64,000 bases of DNA, from assembly GCA_949289845.1 (NCBI GenBank), contig CASEPN010000002.1, positions 248,001 to 312,000 of the forward strand, read 5' to 3'. Shown here piece by piece: positions 2,712 through 64,000 of this stretch (position 1 is its first letter; each line of letters opens with the position of its first letter). The DNA comes from an uncultured Bacillota bacterium (GTDB taxonomy: Bacteria; Bacillota_I; Bacilli_A; RFN20; CAG-826). Below the pieces are notes generated by a model. It did not search any database. It was given only the letters and a program-made list of their open reading frames with translations, and was not told the origin of the DNA. The position numbers and the translations under genes are program-made.

Positions 2712-3397
2712 AAAGCATCGACGAACGGACGGAGGCTCTCCTGGGGAAGGAGGCGTTGGAACTCCTTCGTTCGAAGAAAGTCGCTATCTTTGGGATAGGA
2801 GGGGTAGGCGGGTTTCTTTTCGAAGCGCTTGTCCGAACCGGCGTCGGCGAGATCCATGTTTATGACTGCGATACGGTTGAGGAGTCGAACCTGAACCGCC
2901 AGATACTTTTCCTTCGGAGCGATATTGGGCGGAGGAAGGTCGATGTCGCCGTGGAGAGGGTTTCCCTGATCCGGAACGATGTCCATGTTGTCCCTCATTT
3001 CCTGAGGGTCGGTACCGAGACGGAAGATAGCGTGGCAGAGGAGAAATTCGACCTTCTTCTCGACGCGATAGACGATGTCGAAGGGAAGCTTTCCCTCATG
3101 GAAGTCGCGGAGAAGACGTCTGCGCCGGTCATCTCATGCCTTGGAACTGCCAGAAGACTTGATCCGCGGCTCCTTCGCCTAGCCCCTCTTTCCAAGACCG
3201 CAGGGGATCCCCTCGCCAAGAAGGTTAGGCATCTCGCGCGAGAGCGTTCCCTCGACCTTTCCCGTGTCCTTTGCGTCTATAGCGAGGAGCCTGCCCTGGA
3301 CACAGGCCCCTCGCTTGGTTCTTCCATGCCGGTCCCTGGTTCCGCTGGACTTCTTATGGCCTCCGCGGCCTTAAGGACGCTTCTAGGTCTATACTGA
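2699..3397 (+). CDS. tcdA: tRNA threonylcarbamoyladenosine dehydratase (TcdA/YgdL, ThiF/MoeB-like E1 fold)
   Basis: ATP-dependent enzyme that cyclises t6A37 to ct6A37 in ANN-decoding tRNAs. The adenylating Rossmann motif FGIGGVGGFLFEAL is at about residues 31-44. The following VYDCDTVEESNLNRQILF is the nucleotide-binding and Arg-finger region of ThiF/MoeB proteins. At 232 aa it is a little short for the family (about 250-270). I prefer TcdA over ThiF or MoeB because no sulfur-carrier partner is nearby and the operon already holds two other position-37 genes. The start lies within the end of miaA. Confidence 0.85.
   Translation: MDTLESIDERTEALLGKEALELLRSKKVAIFGIGGVGGFLFEALVRTGVGEIHVYDCDTVEESNLNRQILFLRSDIGRRKVDVAVERVSLIRNDVHVVPHFLRVGTETEDSVAEEKFDLLLDAIDDVEGKLSLMEVAEKTSAPVISCLGTARRLDPRLLRLAPLSKTAGDPLAKKVRHLARERSLDLSRVLCVYSEEPALDTGPSLGSSMPVPGSAGLLMASAALRTLLGLY
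3390..3395 (+). promoter_or_regulatory. -10-like TATACT five bases before the fhs start
   Basis: TATACT overlaps the tcdA stop codon and lies 5 nt before the fhs ATG. No clear -35 is visible. If used, it would give a leaderless fhs mRNA, as seen at several other genes of this window. Confidence 0.4.
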
Positions 3398-3400
3398 GGC

Positions 3401-4999
3401 ATGCACATTTTGCCGATCGACGAAGTCGCGGGGAAGCTGGGCCTAGGGCCTTCTGATTTCATGCCCTATACGAGAGAGATGGCGAAGCTAACGCCTGATT
3501 TCGTCAGGTCGCATTCCAATGGGGATGGGAAGGTAGTGCTCGTCACCGCGATGACTCCCACCAAGTACGGGGAGGGCAAGACCCTGACCTCGATCGCCCT
3601 TCAGGAAGCGCTGTGGTCGTTGGGAATCCATTCCCTGCTCGCCCTACGCGAACCGGCGATCGGGCCGGTGTTTGGGATCAAAGGAGGTGCTACCGGGTCG
3701 GGGAAGGCAACCATCGAGCCGAGCCAAAGGATCAACCTTCACTTCACCGGGGACATCCATGCGCTCACCGCGGCGAACAACCTGATCTCGGCAGTGATCG
3801 ACAACTCCATCTTCCAAGGGAACCCTCTCGAGATCGACCCTGAGCATGTCCTTTGGAAACGTGCCCTGGACATGAACGACAGAGCCCTCCGGAACGTTGA
3901 GATCGCAAGAGGGGGGAAGATCGGCATACCGAGGCGTGAGGAGTTCGTGATAACTGTGGCCTCGGAACTGATGGCGATCCTTTGCCTTGCCCTCGACCGC
4001 GAAGATTTCTACAGGAGGCTCGGGGACATCGCTGTGGCAAAGGGACTGGATGGAAGGGCCATCCACCTCAAGGAACTGGGAATCCGTCATGCCCTCATGG
4101 AACTTATGGAGGATGCGCTCCTCCCGAATCTAGTCCAGACGCAGGACGGGGCTCCCGTCCTCGTCCATGGGGGTCCCTTCGCGAACATTGCCCACGGGGC
4201 GAATTCCATCATCGCCACTCGCCTAGCGCGTTCTCTGGCTTCCCTCGTCATCACTGAAGCTGGCTTCGGCGCGGACCTAGGCGCAGAGAAGTTCCTGGAC
4301 ATCGTCTGTCCCACGGGAGGAATTTCTCCTTCCTGCGTGGTTCTCGTCGCCACCTTGAAGGCTCTCAAGCTTCATGGGGGAGTGCCTGACGCCAGCCTTG
4401 GAGAAGAGAACCCCCAGGCTGTCAGGAGGGGGATCGCCAACGTTGAGAGACATTACGATAACCTGCGTTCGTTCGGCGTGCCGGTCGTGATCTCTCTCAA
4501 TCGTTTCGATCAGGATCACATGAGCGAGATCAAGGAGTTCTCCGTCTGGGCGGAGGAAAGGCGGATTCCTATTGTTCTCACAGAGGGCTATCAGAAGGGC
4601 GCAGTGGGCGCCCAGGAGCTTGCCAGGGCCGTTCTAGGCTTGGTGGACACCCCATCGAACTACCATCCCCTATATAAGAAGAGTGAGCCTTTATTTAAAA
4701 AAGTAGAGCGAATCTGCACGGAAATCTATCGTTGTAATGTCTCCTATTCAGAATCCGCTCTCGCTGATATCAAGGAATACGAGAAGATGCACGGCGACTA
4801 TTTCGTCTGCATGGCGAAGACGCCAAACAGCTTCACCGACGATCCGAAGAAGAAGGGCGCGCCTGACGGCGAGACGGTTCACGTTAGGGACGTTCGCCTG
4901 TATGAGGGCGCCCGCTTCCTCGTGCCGCTGCTAGGAAACATCATGACGATGCCCGGGCTTCCGAAAGTGCCTGCCGCCGTGATGATGGGGGACGAATGA
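3401..4999 (+). CDS. fhs: Formate-tetrahydrofolate ligase
   Basis: Cytosolic one-carbon enzyme that makes 10-formyl-THF from formate, THF and ATP. The nucleotide-binding segment TPTKYGEGKT is at residues 52-61, and GPVFGIKGGATG and HFTGDIHALTAANNL are highly characteristic of FTHFS. At 532 aa it is about 25 residues shorter than typical, mainly at the N-terminus. The ATG at 3401 is the first in frame, 3 nt after the tcdA stop. No Shine-Dalgarno is visible at a normal distance, and a TATACT box sits just upstream. Confidence 0.95.
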   Translation: MHILPIDEVAGKLGLGPSDFMPYTREMAKLTPDFVRSHSNGDGKVVLVTAMTPTKYGEGKTLTSIALQEALWSLGIHSLLALREPAIGPVFGIKGGATGSGKATIEPSQRINLHFTGDIHALTAANNLISAVIDNSIFQGNPLEIDPEHVLWKRALDMNDRALRNVEIARGGKIGIPRREEFVITVASELMAILCLALDREDFYRRLGDIAVAKGLDGRAIHLKELGIRHALMELMEDALLPNLVQTQDGAPVLVHGGPFANIAHGANSIIATRLARSLASLVITEAGFGADLGAEKFLDIVCPTGGISPSCVVLVATLKALKLHGGVPDASLGEENPQAVRRGIANVERHYDNLRSFGVPVVISLNRFDQDHMSEIKEFSVWAEERRIPIVLTEGYQKGAVGAQELARAVLGLVDTPSNYHPLYKKSEPLFKKVERICTEIYRCNVSYSESALADIKEYEKMHGDYFVCMAKTPNSFTDDPKKKGAPDGETVHVRDVRLYEGARFLVPLLGNIMTMPGLPKVPAAVMMGDE

Positions 5000-10378: not shown

Positions 10379-10384
10379 TAGAAT
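10379..10384 (+). promoter_or_regulatory. -10 box six bases before ATG (leaderless start)
   Basis: TAGAAT followed by TGGGCC and the ATG at 10391, with no Shine-Dalgarno. The 20 nt 10374-10393 match 19525-19544, ahead of the DUF4417 gene, at 18 of 20 positions. Confidence 0.5.
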
Positions 10385-10390
10385 TGGGCC

Positions 10391-10969
10391 ATGTCGTTCG
10401 CGAGGAGCAAGGGAGGAGTGGTCGTTGCGTCCATCACCGTATGGATCCTGCAGGTCGTCCTGCCTGTTCTCTCGATTCTGATCGTCTTCGTGGCGACCCT
10501 TCCGAAGGACCCGCCGGTGGAGAGCACGCCTTCCTTCGTCCTCGGGACGTACCGTCTCGATGCGGAAGATGGGAGCGGCTACTATGGCTACCTGAAGCTG
10601 AAGGACTACGACCCGGCGGAGGCCGGGGAATCCTTCCGCGACTATGGTAGGGCCGAGGATAGCCAGGACGGCGGATTCATCAACGTGGAGATGGCCGTCT
10701 ACGACGAGGAGTATGTTCTCGAGGACATCCTCCTCCGCAGGGCGGGGTACCATTACGAGGCCGTGGGAACGGAGTTCCTTCGGATTACATACGACTTCTA
10801 CGTCCGGATCGGCTCGACATGGGGGAAGTCTGTGTTCTTAATCCTCGAGGGATCCGTGGAGAACCCGGACTTCCGTGTGAAGTTAAGCGGCACCCCGTTC
10901 CTCCAGGAAATCGTTGCGGACCCCGTCTATGTGGGAGGGCAGGGCCTCGATTTCGATGAAATCAATTAA
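10391..10969 (+). CDS. Membrane-anchored hypothetical protein
   Basis: 192 aa. One N-terminal membrane helix (about residues 9-38, rich in V, I and L) is followed by an extracytoplasmic domain starting FVLGTYRLDAEDG that looks all-beta, lipocalin-like or similar. I do not recognise a named family. A related but broken gene lies at 60869-61477 on the minus strand (same helix plus a GTY...ATLVL start of the outer domain). Its neighbour downstream is a two-helix peptide 15 nt away. Confidence 0.7.
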   Translation: MSFARSKGGVVVASITVWILQVVLPVLSILIVFVATLPKDPPVESTPSFVLGTYRLDAEDGSGYYGYLKLKDYDPAEAGESFRDYGRAEDSQDGGFINVEMAVYDEEYVLEDILLRRAGYHYEAVGTEFLRITYDFYVRIGSTWGKSVFLILEGSVENPDFRVKLSGTPFLQEIVADPVYVGGQGLDFDEIN

Positions 10970-16653: not shown

Positions 16654-16683
16654 AGGGCGATATCCCTCTGGAAGGTCTATACT
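16654..16683 (+). promoter_or_regulatory. Shared motif and -10 box ahead of small membrane proteins
   Basis: AGGGCGATATCCCTC (16654-16668) recurs exactly at 32415-32429. TATACT (16678-16683) follows, about 26 nt before the next ATG. The motif is close to a palindrome around GATATC. Confidence 0.4.
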
Positions 16684-19432: not shown

Positions 19433-19541
19433 TATCGGATGGTTTCTTTTCTAGAAAACATACGAAAACAGAAGAATTCCTAGGACAAAAACCATATGGA
19501 AACATACTTTTTCCAGTCTCTTTCCCTTGGAAAATTGGGCC

Positions 19542-20213
19542 ATGAAAAAGACATGCTGCGATCGCGAGACTTTGTCCCGCCTGCTCCGGGGTTCCAGGAA
19601 CCCCGAGCCCACCATGGGGATCCCGTCCCTCAAGGGCTGGTTCTCCTGCCTCCCCTCGGGAAAGCTCGTTCGTTACGAGGAAAGGAGAAAGGCCACAAAG
19701 AAGGACCTTATCCATTTCTATACTGCCGATCGGAAGTTTCTCTCGTTCCTCGAGCATCCAGGGCGGCGGGCGGACGAGCTAAGGGGTGCCGCGGGGATCA
19801 TCGGCCCTGACCCGACGATCCTGGCCTACGAGCCTCTCGCCCTTCAGATAGAGGGAATCTTCTGGTCGCGCGCGGTTTCCGCCTACTGCGAGTCCCTCGG
19901 GATTCCCGTCGTCCCGAACATCCGCTGGGGCGACAGGGAGAGTTTCCCGTATGTTTTCGCCGGGATACCTGTTGGTTCCCTGGTGGCCATCGGGACGCTT
20001 GGGCTCATGAGGAAGAAGAAGGGGATGGATGGCATGGCGCGCCTTCTTTTCAAGGAAGGCCTGAAGCAGATGGTCGAAAGGATCAGGCCGAAGGCAATCC
20101 TTGTCTACGGGCCTGCCCCGGAAGACATATTCGGGCCCTATCGGGATGTCGTTCCCATTCACCGCTATCCAAGCCAGATCGAGATCGTCCATTCCCGAAA
20201 GGAGGAAAACTGA
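19542..20213 (+). CDS. DUF4417 family protein
   Basis: 223 aa. The segments GIPSLKGWFSCLPSGKLVRYEE, IIGPDPTILAYEPLALQ and PNIRWGDRESFPYVFAGIP are typical of DUF4417, a family of unknown function often found in accessory or phage-like regions. ATG 19542 is preceded by a GAAAAT box six bases upstream and no clear Shine-Dalgarno, and the preceding 20 nt match those before the gene at 10391. First gene of a four-gene accessory run with 1-13 nt spacings or a 4-nt overlap. Confidence 0.75.
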   Translation: MKKTCCDRETLSRLLRGSRNPEPTMGIPSLKGWFSCLPSGKLVRYEERRKATKKDLIHFYTADRKFLSFLEHPGRRADELRGAAGIIGPDPTILAYEPLALQIEGIFWSRAVSAYCESLGIPVVPNIRWGDRESFPYVFAGIPVGSLVAIGTLGLMRKKKGMDGMARLLFKEGLKQMVERIRPKAILVYGPAPEDIFGPYRDVVPIHRYPSQIEIVHSRKEEN

Positions 20214-23604: not shown

Positions 23605-24261
23605 TTAGCCGAGCCTTTCCTTTTTCCTGACTTCCGCGCGCGAACGTTCGATCGCCTCGATCAATGTTTCCTTTGAGGAGTCCCTGACGGAGTAGCTGAG
23701 CCACTGGGCCTTGTTCATGTGATAGGCGGGGAGGGCCTCGCCTTTCCTCACGATCTCCTCGTGGAGGGGTTCCGGGCATTTCACGTTCAAAAGCGGGACC
23801 TCGCCTTCCATGCCTTCCTTGAGGTATCGGGCTGGTCCCATCAGAAAAAGCGCGTACCAGCTCCCCTTGGGGCCCGTCCTCAGGACGAGGGACTCCCCGT
23901 CCTGGAAAGGCCGCTCGGCCTTCTCCCCGTACTTCTCCTCGAAGTGGCGGATCGCCTCTTCCCCGTTCCTGAGGAAGGGGGAGAGGGGATAGCCGATCTC
24001 CCAGAGGACCTTCTCCATCAGGGCGTCGTGCCTTCTCCTCACGTCCTCGACGAACTCGCCCCTTGCCGCGGGAACTCCCAGAAGGAGATAGGGAAGCCCT
24101 GTGTCCACCTCGATGGTCTCTTCCTCGATCTCCCCGTCCGCCTTCACCTTGAGGCGGAGGAAGAAGCCTCCTCCCGGATAGGGAATGTCCTTGGAAAAGA
24201 CGCCGTCTATCTCCAAAAAGCCGTGCTCCAGGAGAACTTTCCTGTCGAGAATCTCTTCCAT
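23605..24261 (-). CDS. MmcQ/YjbR-family protein
   Basis: 218 aa. The C-terminal half carries the YjbR pattern: LNVKCPEPLHEEIVRKGEAL, then PAYHMNKAQWLSY and TLIEAIERSRAEV. The N-terminal about 95 residues are an extension seen in some homologues. YjbR folds resemble DNA-binding CyaY-like domains, but the role is unknown. The ATG is preceded by TAGGAT six bases upstream and no Shine-Dalgarno, suggesting a leaderless transcript. Confidence 0.75.
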   Translation of the reverse strand: MEEILDRKVLLEHGFLEIDGVFSKDIPYPGGGFFLRLKVKADGEIEEETIEVDTGLPYLLLGVPAARGEFVEDVRRRHDALMEKVLWEIGYPLSPFLRNGEEAIRHFEEKYGEKAERPFQDGESLVLRTGPKGSWYALFLMGPARYLKEGMEGEVPLLNVKCPEPLHEEIVRKGEALPAYHMNKAQWLSYSVRDSSKETLIEAIERSRAEVRKKERLG

Positions 24262-24267
24262 GGGGAA

Positions 24268-24273
24268 ATCCTA
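24268..24273 (-). promoter_or_regulatory. -10 box for leaderless YjbR-like gene
   Basis: TAGGAT on the minus strand, six bases before the ATG. The arrangement TAGGAT-N2-CCCC-ATG is repeated at the 60810 lipoprotein gene. Confidence 0.45.
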
Positions 24274-37179: not shown

Positions 37180-37185
37180 TATAAT
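37180..37185 (+). promoter_or_regulatory. TATAAT seven bases before ATG (leaderless RDD gene)
   Basis: Perfect -10 with only CCAACCC between it and ATG 37193. A TTGCCC lies 21 nt upstream of it, wider than ideal. Confidence 0.5.
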
Positions 37186-37192
37186 CCAACCC

Positions 37193-38854
37193 ATGGACTC
37201 CAAGCTGAAGCAAGCGGGCTACTGGAGGAGGACCTTCGCCTTCCTCATCGACGCCCTTTTCCTCATCCTCTGCACCGTCATCGTCTACGCGAACCTCACC
37301 TCGACCTACCTTATCTCCGCGATGGGCGGGGACAAGGCGAACGAGGAGATGCTCCAGTACGCCTACGATACCGGGCTCTACAACATGGAGGAGACCGAGG
37401 AGGGAGGCTACCGCTTCAAGGACGGGAACGGGTATCTCAGCTACGCGGCCGAGCCCCAGTCCACGACGACTTCGGATTCCGAAGGGAAGGAGGAGACGGT
37501 CGTGACCCAGGAGAAGAGGGGCTACCTCCTTTACTGGGACGCGATGTGGTCCTACTGGACCGGCTTCTTCCTCGAGGACGAGCGCGCGGTCCCCTTGAGC
37601 GAGATGGACGCGGAAGGAAACGAGATCGAGCTCCCGCGCCCGACGGGGACGGACGATCCGAACTTCGCCTCCTACGGGCGCTACTTCAGCCAGGAGTTCA
37701 TGGGGCTCCCCGAGCTCAGCGAGGTCGAGGAGGCGACGAACTGGAAGGAATACGCGGAAACGCACGAGGACTGGGAGCGGAACCTTTCCGACGGGGGCAT
37801 GGGCCAGGGGAAGGTCGGCTACTACCGCTATTCCCTGAACGAGGAGGGATTCGTGGACTACTCGCTCCCGCCCGTCCTCACGAGCGCCTCGGAGGAGGGG
37901 CTTTCCTCCCCGCAGACGAGCGCCCAGTGGTCGAGCGCGCTCCTCGGCCATTTCTACGACCCCGACGTGGGGGAAGGCTGCTACTTCGACCTCGCCGACT
38001 GGGCGATCGGCTGGGGGGACAGCCCCCAGTCCTACTACCGGGAGCGCTATGACGCGATCAACGACTACGCCTCCTATGCGCTCGACGTCGCCTACGCGCC
38101 CTTCCTGTTCCTCTTCTTCTACCTCATCCCCGCCCTCATGCGGGACGGGAAGACGCTAGGGAAGGCGATCCTCCGCATCGCCGTGGTGAAGCGCGAGGGG
38201 ACGAGGATCGGGCCCAAGGAGAGGCTCCTCCGGCCGCTCGTGGTCATGGCGATGCTTTCCCTCATCTTCATCCCGAACCTCTGGCTCTCCCTCATGTTCC
38301 TGATGCTCGTCGTCCTCCTGGACTTCATGCTCATGATCCTTCACAAGTCCCACCTCACCGTGGAGGACATGATCTTCGGCACCATCGTCATCGACGCGAG
38401 GGAGTCCCTCTGGTTCCGGAGCGAGGAGGAGAAGGAACGCTACCTCGCCGCCCACCCGGAGCGGAGCAAGTCCGCCCCCAAGACCCCGGAGGAGGAGCAG
38501 CTGGAGAAAGAGCTCCAGATCCTCGATCTCTCGACGATCGACGCGCGGAGGGAGGAGGCGAGGAGGATGACCTCCTTCGACGCGTTCGAGGAGGAGCAGG
38601 ACCGCCTCCACAAGGAGAGGATCGAGTCGATCCGCGCGGGGACGCTCCCCAGGAAGGAAGAGGTTCCTTCTGGGGAAGAGGAAGGAACGGGGGATATTCC
38701 CGCGGAATCCGCGAAAACTTCGCAGAATCCCTCCGAAAGCGAGAATTATTCCAGAATCCAGGAGGAAGGGGCCCCTTCTGCGGAGGTTTCGGAGGACAAG
38801 GACGAGGATTCCTCCCCGGAATCGGATTTCGCCGACGAAGGCGGGGACGAATAG
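37193..38854 (+). CDS. RDD-family membrane protein with large extracytoplasmic insertion (1 of 3)
   Basis: 553 aa. The RDD helix GYWRRTFAFLIDALFLILC is at about residues 9-27. Then about 250 residues, acidic and Tyr/Trp-rich, interrupt the domain before the other helices (FLFLFFYLIPALMRDGKTLG and following to about 395). The C-terminal about 130 residues are charged and probably cytosolic. RDD proteins are proposed transporters or ion exchangers. The frame continues upstream, but the TATAAT box would lie within it, so ATG 37193 is preferred. Confidence 0.7.
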   Translation: MDSKLKQAGYWRRTFAFLIDALFLILCTVIVYANLTSTYLISAMGGDKANEEMLQYAYDTGLYNMEETEEGGYRFKDGNGYLSYAAEPQSTTTSDSEGKEETVVTQEKRGYLLYWDAMWSYWTGFFLEDERAVPLSEMDAEGNEIELPRPTGTDDPNFASYGRYFSQEFMGLPELSEVEEATNWKEYAETHEDWERNLSDGGMGQGKVGYYRYSLNEEGFVDYSLPPVLTSASEEGLSSPQTSAQWSSALLGHFYDPDVGEGCYFDLADWAIGWGDSPQSYYRERYDAINDYASYALDVAYAPFLFLFFYLIPALMRDGKTLGKAILRIAVVKREGTRIGPKERLLRPLVVMAMLSLIFIPNLWLSLMFLMLVVLLDFMLMILHKSHLTVEDMIFGTIVIDARESLWFRSEEEKERYLAAHPERSKSAPKTPEEEQLEKELQILDLSTIDARREEARRMTSFDAFEEEQDRLHKERIESIRAGTLPRKEEVPSGEEEGTGDIPAESAKTSQNPSESENYSRIQEEGAPSAEVSEDKDEDSSPESDFADEGGDE

Positions 38855-60297: not shown

Positions 60298-60810
60298 CTA
60301 CTCCGACTTGGCCTCGGGGATGGAGGAGGAGAGGGCTTCCCCTTCGCTTGCGGAGGTCGACGAGGGAAGAAGGGCCTCGCTTGTGACCGCGACGCCTCCC
60401 TTGGTGAAGACGAAGAGCGGTTCCGACCCCGCGGAGGGGCCCATGAACGAAATGGCGTCCACCCCGTTATAGGTAAGGAGGGCGACGCTCGTGCGGTAGC
60501 GGCTTTCCCCGATCGTCAGGAGTCCCTGCATCGTCCCGGAAAGGAAGCCGTCCAGGGAACAGGGAAGAGCGGTCTCCCTCTGGTCGACGAGAGAAAGCTC
60601 GAGAAGATAGTAGGAGCCGTTCCAGTTCAGGAAGTTCCCGTTCTCCTCGTCGCTCAGGCTTACCTTGAGCGTGCCTTCGAACTCGTCCTTCATCGTCCCG
60701 ATCCCGGATTCCGGAATCGTCCAAGTGCCTAGGAGGATGTCGGGCTTCTCCACGCAGGAGGCAAGGGGGAGGGACAGGAGGAGGGGGACGAGGAAGGCCG
60801 CTTTCTTCAT
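60298..60810 (-). CDS. Small hypothetical lipoprotein
   Basis: 170 aa. Lipobox PLASC (Cys19) then a beta-rich domain starting LLGTWTIPESGIG, of lipocalin-like type, ending in a Ser/Glu-rich tail. The ATG has TAGGAT six bases upstream and CCCC just before, the same as the YjbR-like gene; no Shine-Dalgarno. tRNA-Pro is 36 nt downstream on the same strand. Confidence 0.7.
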   Translation of the reverse strand: MKKAAFLVPLLLSLPLASCVEKPDILLGTWTIPESGIGTMKDEFEGTLKVSLSDEENGNFLNWNGSYYLLELSLVDQRETALPCSLDGFLSGTMQGLLTIGESRYRTSVALLTYNGVDAISFMGPSAGSEPLFVFTKGGVAVTSEALLPSSTSASEGEALSSSIPEAKSE

Positions 60811-60816
60811 GGGGCT

Positions 60817-60822
60817 ATCCTA
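60817..60822 (-). promoter_or_regulatory. -10 box for leaderless lipoprotein gene
   Basis: TAGGAT on the minus strand, six bases before the ATG at 60810. Confidence 0.45.
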
Positions 60823-60868: not shown

Positions 60869-61477
60869 TCAGTAGGCAAACTCGAAGGAAAGCGATCCGA
60901 GGCCCTCCGGTTCCAGGAACGCCATCACTAGGATTCCCTTCTCGGTGAATTTCAAGCTGTGACCGAAGCCCGGATTATAGTAGTCCTTGAGTTCTTCCTC
61001 GGGAACGCTCTTTAGAGATCCGGAAGGATAGGCACTTCTGCTGAGGATAAGGTTCCAGTTCGCCTCGGGGAACCTATGGCACTTGGTGTAAAGCACGTCG
61101 AACGACCGGCCGTCCTTTTCCACGGTCAGGGAGAAGGAGTAGTTTCCTCCCTGGAAGGAGAAGGCATTCACGAGGCATTTCTCTTATTCCCGGAGATACT
61201 GATCATCGGAAGGCACGACGTAATCCACTTTCCTTTGGAAGCCCGCCAAATCTTCCTCTTCGCGGAGCACTAGCGTGGCGGTCGCCCCTTCGTCCTGGGT
61301 AACATACGTCCCGGGGACAGGGCGGTGGGTGTTCATATCTTCGATGACAGCCATGGTGACGGGAATGGCGATCGCGATGGCCGTAATGAGCACGAGGAAG
61401 CTCGAAAGGAAAATGATCACAGCCTTCTTGCCTGTGGAGAGGTTAATCCACCAGAGTTTCAGACGAAGTGCTGCCAT
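60869..61477 (-). pseudogene. Membrane-anchored protein gene broken by an in-frame TAA
   Basis: Read from ATG 61477, the frame gives an N-terminal membrane helix and GTYVTQDEGATATLVLREEE. A single TAA (61184-61186) interrupts it; the same frame continues to a TGA at 60869. The total of 202 codons matches the intact relative at 10391-10969. Restart at GTG 61171 lacks a good ribosome site. Most likely a recent nonsense mutation, but two short proteins cannot be excluded. Confidence 0.6.
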
Positions 61478-61482
61478 ATCTT

Positions 61483-61488
61483 ATTTTA
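61483..61488 (-). promoter_or_regulatory. -10 box five bases before the broken gene
   Basis: TAAAAT on the minus strand followed by AAGAT and the ATG. Confidence 0.4.
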
Positions 61489-61748: not shown

Positions 61749-61754
61749 TATAAT
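61749..61754 (+). promoter_or_regulatory. TATAAT nine bases before uvrA
   Basis: Perfect -10; nine bases separate it from ATG 61764, with no Shine-Dalgarno. No clear -35. Confidence 0.5.
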
Positions 61755-61763
61755 CTCCGGGCA

Positions 61764-64000
61764 ATGGAACAAGATAGCCGCAAGTACATCCTTGTCTCGG
61801 GCGCGAGGGAGAACAACCTGAAGGACATCTCTCTTTCGATTCCCAAGGAAACCCTGACCGTCTTCACCGGGCTTTCCGGCTCCGGGAAGAGCACCCTCGC
61901 CTTCGACACCATCTACGCGGAAGGCCAGAGAAGGTACGTGGAGTCCCTTTCTCCCTACGCCCGCCAGTTCCTCGGAGGGATGGAGAAGCCGGACGTCGAC
62001 TCCATCGAAGGGCTTTCCCCGGCCATATCGATCGACCAGAAGACGACCTCCCATAACCCTCGTTCCACGGTAGGGACGGTAACGGAAATCTACGACTTCC
62101 TCCGCCTCCTCTACGCGAGGATCGGCGTCCCCTACTGCCCCGAGCACGGCATTCCCATCGTCTCCCAGACCCCCGTCGCGATGACCGACCTCATCCTCCA
62201 GTACCCCATGGGCACGAAGGTGGTGCTCCTTGCCCCCGTGGTCCGCCACGAGAAGGGAAGGCAGGAGGAAGAGCTCGAGAGGATCCGTCGCGCGGGCTTC
62301 GAGAGGGTGCGCGTGGATGGGGAGATGTCCCTTATCTCCGAGCTTCCCCAGCTGGACAAGAACAAGCGGCACGACATCGACGTCGTCGTCGATCGCCTCA
62401 TCCTCAAGGAAGGGGTCCGCTCGCGCCTGGCGGGGGACGTCGAGCTCGCGCTTGACCTCGGGCATGGCTATCTCCGGATCATCGCCGGGGAGGAGGAGCG
62501 CCTTCTTTCAAGCAACCACACCTGCCCCCAGTGCGGCTTCTCCGTCCCGAAGCTCGAGCCGCGGCTCTTCTCGTTCAACGCCCCTCTTGGCTACTGCCCT
62601 TCCTGCAAGGGGCTCGGAGTGTCCCGCACCGTCAGCCTTTCCCTCCTCGTTCCCGACCCTACGAAGACCATCCGCGAGGGGGCGATCCGCTACTACAAGA
62701 ACACCGTCGGCACCGCCAATCTCGAATGGCAGGAGTTCCAGACGCTCCTCGACCACTATTCCATTCCCATGGACGTGCCCTTCCAGGACCTGACCAAGGA
62801 GCAAAGGGACATCGTCCTCCACGGGTCCAAGGAGCCGATCGAAAGGAAGCTCGTCTCCGTGAACGGGAACGTCATGAGGCGCTCGACGAGGATCGAGGGA
62901 GTGCAGGACAAGATCGAAAGGCTTTATTCCGAGACTACTTCGAAATGGATGCTCCCCTACTACGAGAGCTTCATGCACGACGAGGAATGCCGGAGCTGCC
63001 ACGGGGCGAGGCTTTCCCACGAGGCCCTCTCGGTCAAGGTGAACGGCCTCAGCATCTACGAGTGCACCTGCCTCCCGATCGGAAAGTTCCTCTCCTGGCT
63101 CGGGGAGCTTGAGGACTCCCTCAAGGAGAACGAAAGGCACATCGCCGGGCTCCTCATCAAGGAAATCCGCTCGAGGGCGGAGTTCCTCCTGAACGTCGGG
63201 CTCGACTACCTCACCCTTTCCCGGATGGCGATGACCCTTTCCGGGGGAGAGAGCCAGCGCATCCGCCTCGCCACCCAGATCGGGAGCCGCCTCTCCGGCG
63301 TCCTCTACGTCCTCGACGAGCCCTCGATCGGCCTCCACCAGCGGGACGGGGAGAAGCTCATCGGGACCCTCCGCGAGATGCGGGACCTCGGGAACACCCT
63401 CATCGTCGTCGAGCACGACGAGGAAACCATCAGGAGCGCCGACTGGATCGTCGACATCGGCCCCGGGGCCGGCATCCACGGGGGCCAGGTCGTCGCGGAA
63501 GGGACGCTCGAGGACATCGAGCGCTGCCCTGAGTCCATCACCGGGGCCTATCTTTCCGGGAGGATGAAGATCGACATTCCGGAGGAGAGGAGGAAGGGGA
63601 ACGGGAAGAAGCTCGTGCTCAAGGGCGCCTCCTGCCATAACCTCAAGGACATTGACGTAACCTTCCCCCTCGGGAAGTTCATCGCAGTGACCGGCGTCTC
63701 CGGCTCGGGGAAGAGCAGCCTCGTCAACGAGACCCTCGGGAAGATCCTGGCGAGCCGCCTCAACGGGGCGGACGAGACCCCGGGCCCCTACCGCTCGATC
63801 CAGGGCCTCCAGAACCTCGACCGCGTCATCCGCGTCTCCCAGGACCCGATCGGAAGGACCCCCAGGAGCAACCCCGCGACCTACATCAAGCTCTTCGACG
63901 ACATCCGCGCCCTCTTCGCCGAGACCCCCGAGGCCAGGGCGAGGGGATATGAGAAGGGGCGCTTCTCCTTCAACGTGCCCGGGGGGCGCTGCGAGAAGTG
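61764..64000 (+). CDS. uvrA: Excinuclease ABC subunit A (5' part)
   Basis: 745 complete codons; runs off the window. Damage-recognition ATPase of nucleotide excision repair. Walker A GLSGSGKSTLAFDTIYAEGQ near residue 36, zinc cysteines CPQCGF and CPSC, the first signature LSGGESQRIRLATQIG and LYVLDEPSIGLH, and the second Walker A GVSGSGKSSLVNET are all present. The last visible codons (VPGGRCEKC) are the start of the C-terminal zinc site. Leaderless start likely. Confidence 0.97.
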   Translation, partial: MEQDSRKYILVSGARENNLKDISLSIPKETLTVFTGLSGSGKSTLAFDTIYAEGQRRYVESLSPYARQFLGGMEKPDVDSIEGLSPAISIDQKTTSHNPRSTVGTVTEIYDFLRLLYARIGVPYCPEHGIPIVSQTPVAMTDLILQYPMGTKVVLLAPVVRHEKGRQEEELERIRRAGFERVRVDGEMSLISELPQLDKNKRHDIDVVVDRLILKEGVRSRLAGDVELALDLGHGYLRIIAGEEERLLSSNHTCPQCGFSVPKLEPRLFSFNAPLGYCPSCKGLGVSRTVSLSLLVPDPTKTIREGAIRYYKNTVGTANLEWQEFQTLLDHYSIPMDVPFQDLTKEQRDIVLHGSKEPIERKLVSVNGNVMRRSTRIEGVQDKIERLYSETTSKWMLPYYESFMHDEECRSCHGARLSHEALSVKVNGLSIYECTCLPIGKFLSWLGELEDSLKENERHIAGLLIKEIRSRAEFLLNVGLDYLTLSRMAMTLSGGESQRIRLATQIGSRLSGVLYVLDEPSIGLHQRDGEKLIGTLREMRDLGNTLIVVEHDEETIRSADWIVDIGPGAGIHGGQVVAEGTLEDIERCPESITGAYLSGRMKIDIPEERRKGNGKKLVLKGASCHNLKDIDVTFPLGKFIAVTGVSGSGKSSLVNETLGKILASRLNGADETPGPYRSIQGLQNLDRVIRVSQDPIGRTPRSNPATYIKLFDDIRALFAETPEARARGYEKGRFSFNVPGGRCEK

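Follow-up and report, generated by a model that had tools for sequence, protein, structure and literature searches.

Leaderless genes are patchily distributed among the Firmicutes, in which a computational survey found them in 56 of 209 genomes, at an average of 4.2% (range 2.4-16.6%) and mainly in the Lactobacillales and Mycoplasma (Zheng et al. 2011, PMC3160421). Leaderless transcripts make up 8.6-9% of the mRNAs of streptococci such as Streptococcus pyogenes (PMC6431027), the figure for Mycoplasma pneumoniae is 16% (PMC10568206), and in B. methanolicus six transcripts (<0.5%) have a 5'-UTR under 10 nt, none of them being strictly leaderless (PMC4342826). The present analysis, which is based on comparison of genome sequences, concerns a genus of uncultured gut Bacilli in which a sizeable minority of transcription units very probably carry a sigma-70/sigma-A -10 box at the ATG and are expressed as leaderless mRNAs, the rest being led by Shine-Dalgarno (SD) sites.

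The window, which is the whole 64-kb stretch of DNA analysed (61% GC), is part of a 1.298-Mb genome (G000; 4 contigs, ~98% complete) and was compared with 36 congeneric species, among them T19_L4_323323 bin.173 (G018) and E20 bin183 (G026), and with families f2-f8 of the same order. The Fhs protein encoded in the window finds its best matches in uncultured Bacilli/Firmicutes MAGs (86-89%), followed by rumen and gut Bacilli/Erysipelotrichaceae MAGs (~55%). Members of the genus (G000-G036) range from ~37% to 61% GC, as seen at the loci around uvrA (L100-L129), and from 0.8 to 1.9 Mb in genome size.

Start contexts of eight genes in the window

A preliminary description of the window had listed eight genes as leaderless, each with a -10 box shortly before the ATG and no SD. 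All eight quoted upstream sequences are present in the DNA, their spacers measuring 5-9 nt, and comparison with orthologues supports the leaderless reading for seven of the genes, the exception being the gene at 19542. The features are as follows, together with one leadered gene that serves as a contrast.

3390..3395, + strand: fhs -10 box TATACT, 5 nt before ATG 3401
3401..4999, + strand: fhs, formate-tetrahydrofolate ligase, predicted leaderless (PF01268 over residues 3-529)
10379..10384, + strand: -10 box TAGAAT, 6 nt before ATG 10391
10391..10969, + strand: gene of 192 aa, function unassigned, predicted leaderless from comparison with G018
16678..16683, + strand: TATACT of a leadered SD gene, ~26 nt before ATG 16710, with AAGGAG between
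19530..19535, + strand: GAAAAT before ATG 19542 (DUF4417 gene), unsupported, no match to TANNNT
23605..24261, - strand: YjbR-domain protein, 218 aa, predicted leaderless (PF04237)
24268..24273, - strand: -10 box TAGGAT, 6 nt before ATG 24261, kept in G018 and G026
37180..37185, + strand: -10 box TATAAT, 7 nt before ATG 37193
37193..38854, + strand: RDD-family membrane protein, 553 aa, predicted leaderless (PF06271)
60298..60810, - strand: protein of 170 aa without Pfam match, predicted leaderless
60817..60822, - strand: -10 box TAGGAT, 6 nt before ATG 60810, unchanged in G018
61184..61477, - strand: protein of 97 aa without Pfam match, predicted leaderless
61483..61488, - strand: -10 box TAAAAT, 5 nt before ATG 61477
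61749..61754, + strand: uvrA -10 box TATAAT, 9 nt before ATG 61764
61764..64000, + strand: uvrA, predicted leaderless, running past the window end (PF17760, PF17755)

The fhs box and its spacing are the same in G018, G026, G011 and G022, and the RDD gene has TATAAT at a spacing of 6-7 nt in these same four genomes, most of its other orthologues examined in the genus showing -10-like boxes without an SD. A -10-like box lies close before the start of uvrA in nearly all genus members with readable upstream sequence (GC 0.37-0.61). A second UvrA-like protein, which shares ~35% identity with the main one, is encoded at G000:C1:670923-673397 and occurs also in several genus members. In uvrA, the RDD gene and the genes at 24261 and 61477, the box distance has been kept in orthologues although the flanks diverged, as illustrated by 61477, where the flank has diverged in G018, yet the orthologue carries TATAAT 6 nt before the equivalent ATG. 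The TAGGAT boxes include AGGA, and an individual one might act as a weak SD; at 24261, the orthologue in G011 (40% identity) has TATAAT with a 6-nt spacer, so that TAGGAT is here better read as a -10 box. At 19542, GAAAAT is without the initial TA of a -10 box, and the gene caller prefers a start at 19614, leaving the start uncertain.

The boxes might be real and translation nevertheless begin further downstream, at a codon preceded by an SD, in which case the mRNAs would have short leaders. The gene at 10391, whose start was misplaced by the motif-free gene caller, offers such a codon, a GTG at 10418 with GGGAGGA before it. In G018, however, the box and the ATG of this gene are unchanged and the codon at 10418 is GTC, which is not a start codon. 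Furthermore, codon-like substitutions between G000 and G018 begin right after the ATG, with changes falling mostly on the third codon position (0.28 versus 0.05 and 0.03 at the other two), which identifies the ATG as the true start. In the same comparison, which rests on only seven or eight leaderless genes, positions -15 to -7 changed at 1 of 63 sites, the spacer at 6 of 42 and the sequence upstream at 10-16%. Pfam models likewise begin at the proposed N-terminus (RuvA_N at residue 1, PGM at 3, a glycosyltransferase at 4 and a PlsX-type protein at 5), and general use of downstream starts is most improbable.

Box enrichment, spacing and Shine-Dalgarno use in the genome

Genes were called from coding statistics only, with upstream signals unused, giving 338 genes in 421 kb drawn from all contigs, of which 329 had enough upstream sequence to be scored; gene-level counts consequently cover 421 of the 1298 kb of G000, and pattern counts cover whole genomes. 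The box pattern, TANNNT ending 5-9 nt 5' of the start codon, was found at 48 of the 329 genes, compared with 27 of 3360 internal ATGs (Fisher p 3e-33), and the enrichment check that the preliminary description had proposed was thereby borne out. Dinucleotide shuffles yielded 12.6 +/- 3.7 box genes, with a maximum of 24 in 200 shuffles. The excess at starts is 4-fold, rising to 7-fold among non-SD genes, and with chance subtracted, ~36 genes in the 421 kb would be leaderless, roughly 11%, or about one gene in nine. An annotation-free test, in which TATAAT-N5-9-ATG (near) is set against TATAAT-N12-16-ATG (far), gave 51 near and 4 far sites in the whole genome (p 1e-11) and none for a reversed-pattern control.

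The spacer is sharply peaked at 6 nt (22 genes), with 6 genes at 5 nt, 9 at 7 nt, 9 at 8 nt and 4 at 9 nt, relative to ~2.4 at each of the other positions. By the established sigma-70 geometry, transcription from a box with a 6-nt spacer would start at the A of the ATG, and the sharpness of the peak thus places the predicted start on this nucleotide; spacers of 8-9 nt would permit leaders of 1-3 nt. The start codon is ATG in 46 of the 48 box genes. Genes that are divergently transcribed or have a distant neighbour carry the box more often (27 of 138 versus 18 of 176, p 0.02), the figure for divergently transcribed genes being 16 of 50. By Pfam, predicted leaderless housekeeping genes include those for FtsK, RuvA, SmpB, RecG, a PlsX-type fatty acid synthesis protein, signal peptidase, phosphoglucomutase/phosphomannomutase, GdpP, UvrA and Fhs. 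The Wadjet defence protein JetA (PF18982) is matched by another predicted leaderless gene (L003 4205-5575).

It might be argued that the boxes are not promoters at all and merely mark A+T-rich, unstructured start contexts of leadered genes that initiate without an SD. Such genes are thought to be common in some bacteria (PMC3160421), and the two closest genomes show only a weak -35 region, which counts against the promoter reading. The signal is, however, a specific hexamer, the freely varying interior of which reads T.54 A.61 A.66 (i.e. TATAAT) at one spacing; perfect TATAAT sites are concentrated in the near position across the genome, and composition alone explains just the 12.6 box genes of the shuffles. 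We therefore consider an A+T-rich context very unlikely to be the explanation, and these comparisons give good support to a promoter for the housekeeping polymerase that is fused to the start codon.

Of the genes in the G000 sample, 56% have an SD-like site, whereas among the 48 box genes just 5 do (odds ratio 0.067, p 4e-12), and several of these five have TAGGAT boxes, themselves containing AGGA. This mutual exclusion, together with leadered promoters such as that of 16710, indicates that two modes of initiation coexist, as the preliminary description had held. With the promoter fused to the start codon, RNA polymerase would be directed by the housekeeping -10 box to start at the A of the ATG or at most a few nt away from it, and the resulting mRNA would consequently have neither a leader nor an SD. 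The 5'-terminal AUG would presumably be translated by the 70S/initiator-tRNA route described in other bacteria (PMC10568206; PMC6431027), and the other genes would use ordinary SD sites and an intact anti-SD.

Distribution in the genus and order, and the translation machinery

The near/far excess of TATAAT is significant in 35 of the 37 species of the genus (median ratio 2.55), including members with AT-rich loci (G011, G022 and G028), and is not significant in G013 and G015. Chance matches picked by eye in one window can consequently be dismissed: 19542 is a weak case among the eight listed, and chance would supply about a quarter of the 48 box genes, but the comparison with internal ATGs, the near/far test and its recurrence across species refute chance as a general account, and its likelihood is negligible. 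In the 24 outgroup genomes, drawn from seven other families of the same order, the excess is significant in none (median ratio 0.92), although these outgroups are mostly AT-rich, and 100-300 or more chance matches could mask a few dozen true sites; the lower-background outgroups G052 and G057 are likewise negative. In one f2 genome (G044), the sampled genes gave a weakly positive signal (TATAAT 12 versus 6.0), but the whole-genome near/far ratio is 0.89, chance matches being dominant at 28% GC. The leaderless start thus seems, from these pattern counts, to be a trait of nearly the whole genus that is undetected in the seven sister families sampled.

Individual genes appear to have changed mode within the genus. 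At fhs (L210-L239), the leaderless TATACT-ATG arrangement is seen in G000, G018, G026, G011 and G022, and most other members have an SD-led gene. It is about an even chance that the genus acquired, or greatly enlarged, its leaderless expression in a single event at its root and kept it over ~37-61% GC, with fhs-like genes switching mode; if it did, the genus would be a natural experiment on the interconversion of two initiation modes. Because it combines this span of GC content with genes that switch mode, the genus lends itself to tests of how a promoter comes to be joined to a start codon. In practical terms, gene finders built on the expectation of an SD may place starts wrongly in the genus, and constructs meant to express such genes have to retain the native start context.

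Three candidate causes in the translation machinery were considered. An altered or lost anti-SD is ruled out, since the 16S 3' end is intact (GGATCACCTCCTTTCT, exact at G000:C2:325716) and retains CCTCC. Loss of ribosomal protein S1 is rejected as a genus-specific cause because the rpsA cut-off is missed throughout the order; this cut-off is a strict one, passed by 2 of 14 control genomes only. A classical multi-domain S1 was not found in any genome of the order sampled. This apparent order-wide absence may have eased a shift to leaderless genes, and is not specific to the genus. G000 has only two S1-domain proteins, PNPase and one small protein (G000:C1:308974-309225, C1:22743-22982), most other families having 3-7. 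Loss of IF3 is also rejected, IF3 being present in 58 of 61 genomes.

Comparison with known leaderless systems

The frequency of leaderless genes had been called unusual for a Bacilli-type genome, which holds true relative to Bacillus, where they are rare, and to the rest of the order, where the signal is not detected in the families sampled, but not in view of the streptococci, Mycoplasma and the other Firmicutes in which such genes are known. The estimate for G000 falls near the top of the published Firmicutes range. In the part of the literature covered by our search, no report of leaderless mRNA in this genus or lineage was found.

As in Lactococcus/Streptococcus, Oenococcus/Leuconostoc and Mycoplasma, a Pribnow box lies just before the start of a minority of genes, and SD genes coexist. 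Unlike in those Firmicutes, the arrangement is genus-wide in uncultured gut Bacilli that reach 61% GC and is undetected in seven sister families, and SD use is far more extensive than in M. pneumoniae, with its 8.1% SD genes. The genus appears to fall outside the Lactobacillales and Mycoplasma clades, its nearest named relatives by Fhs being the uncultured Bacilli/Erysipelotrichaceae MAGs. Outside the phylum, the closest likeness is to the -10-motif genes of Deinococcus-Thermus, in which TANNNT lies a few bp before the ORF in high-GC genomes and coexists with an RBS motif; there, ~30% of ORFs are concerned, compared with ~11% here, and the promoter role, here deduced from sequence, has been proven by experiment (PMC12340547). 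In the mycobacterial/actinobacterial transcriptome, leaderless and SD-led genes also coexist, leaderless transcription being extensive and its start sites mapped by RNA-seq (PMC3898074). Since leaderless genes are known elsewhere, the genus is another case of an established phenomenon: a further Firmicutes lineage with leaderless genes, whose anatomy is not new, and one that adds uncultured gut bacteria to a patchy list.
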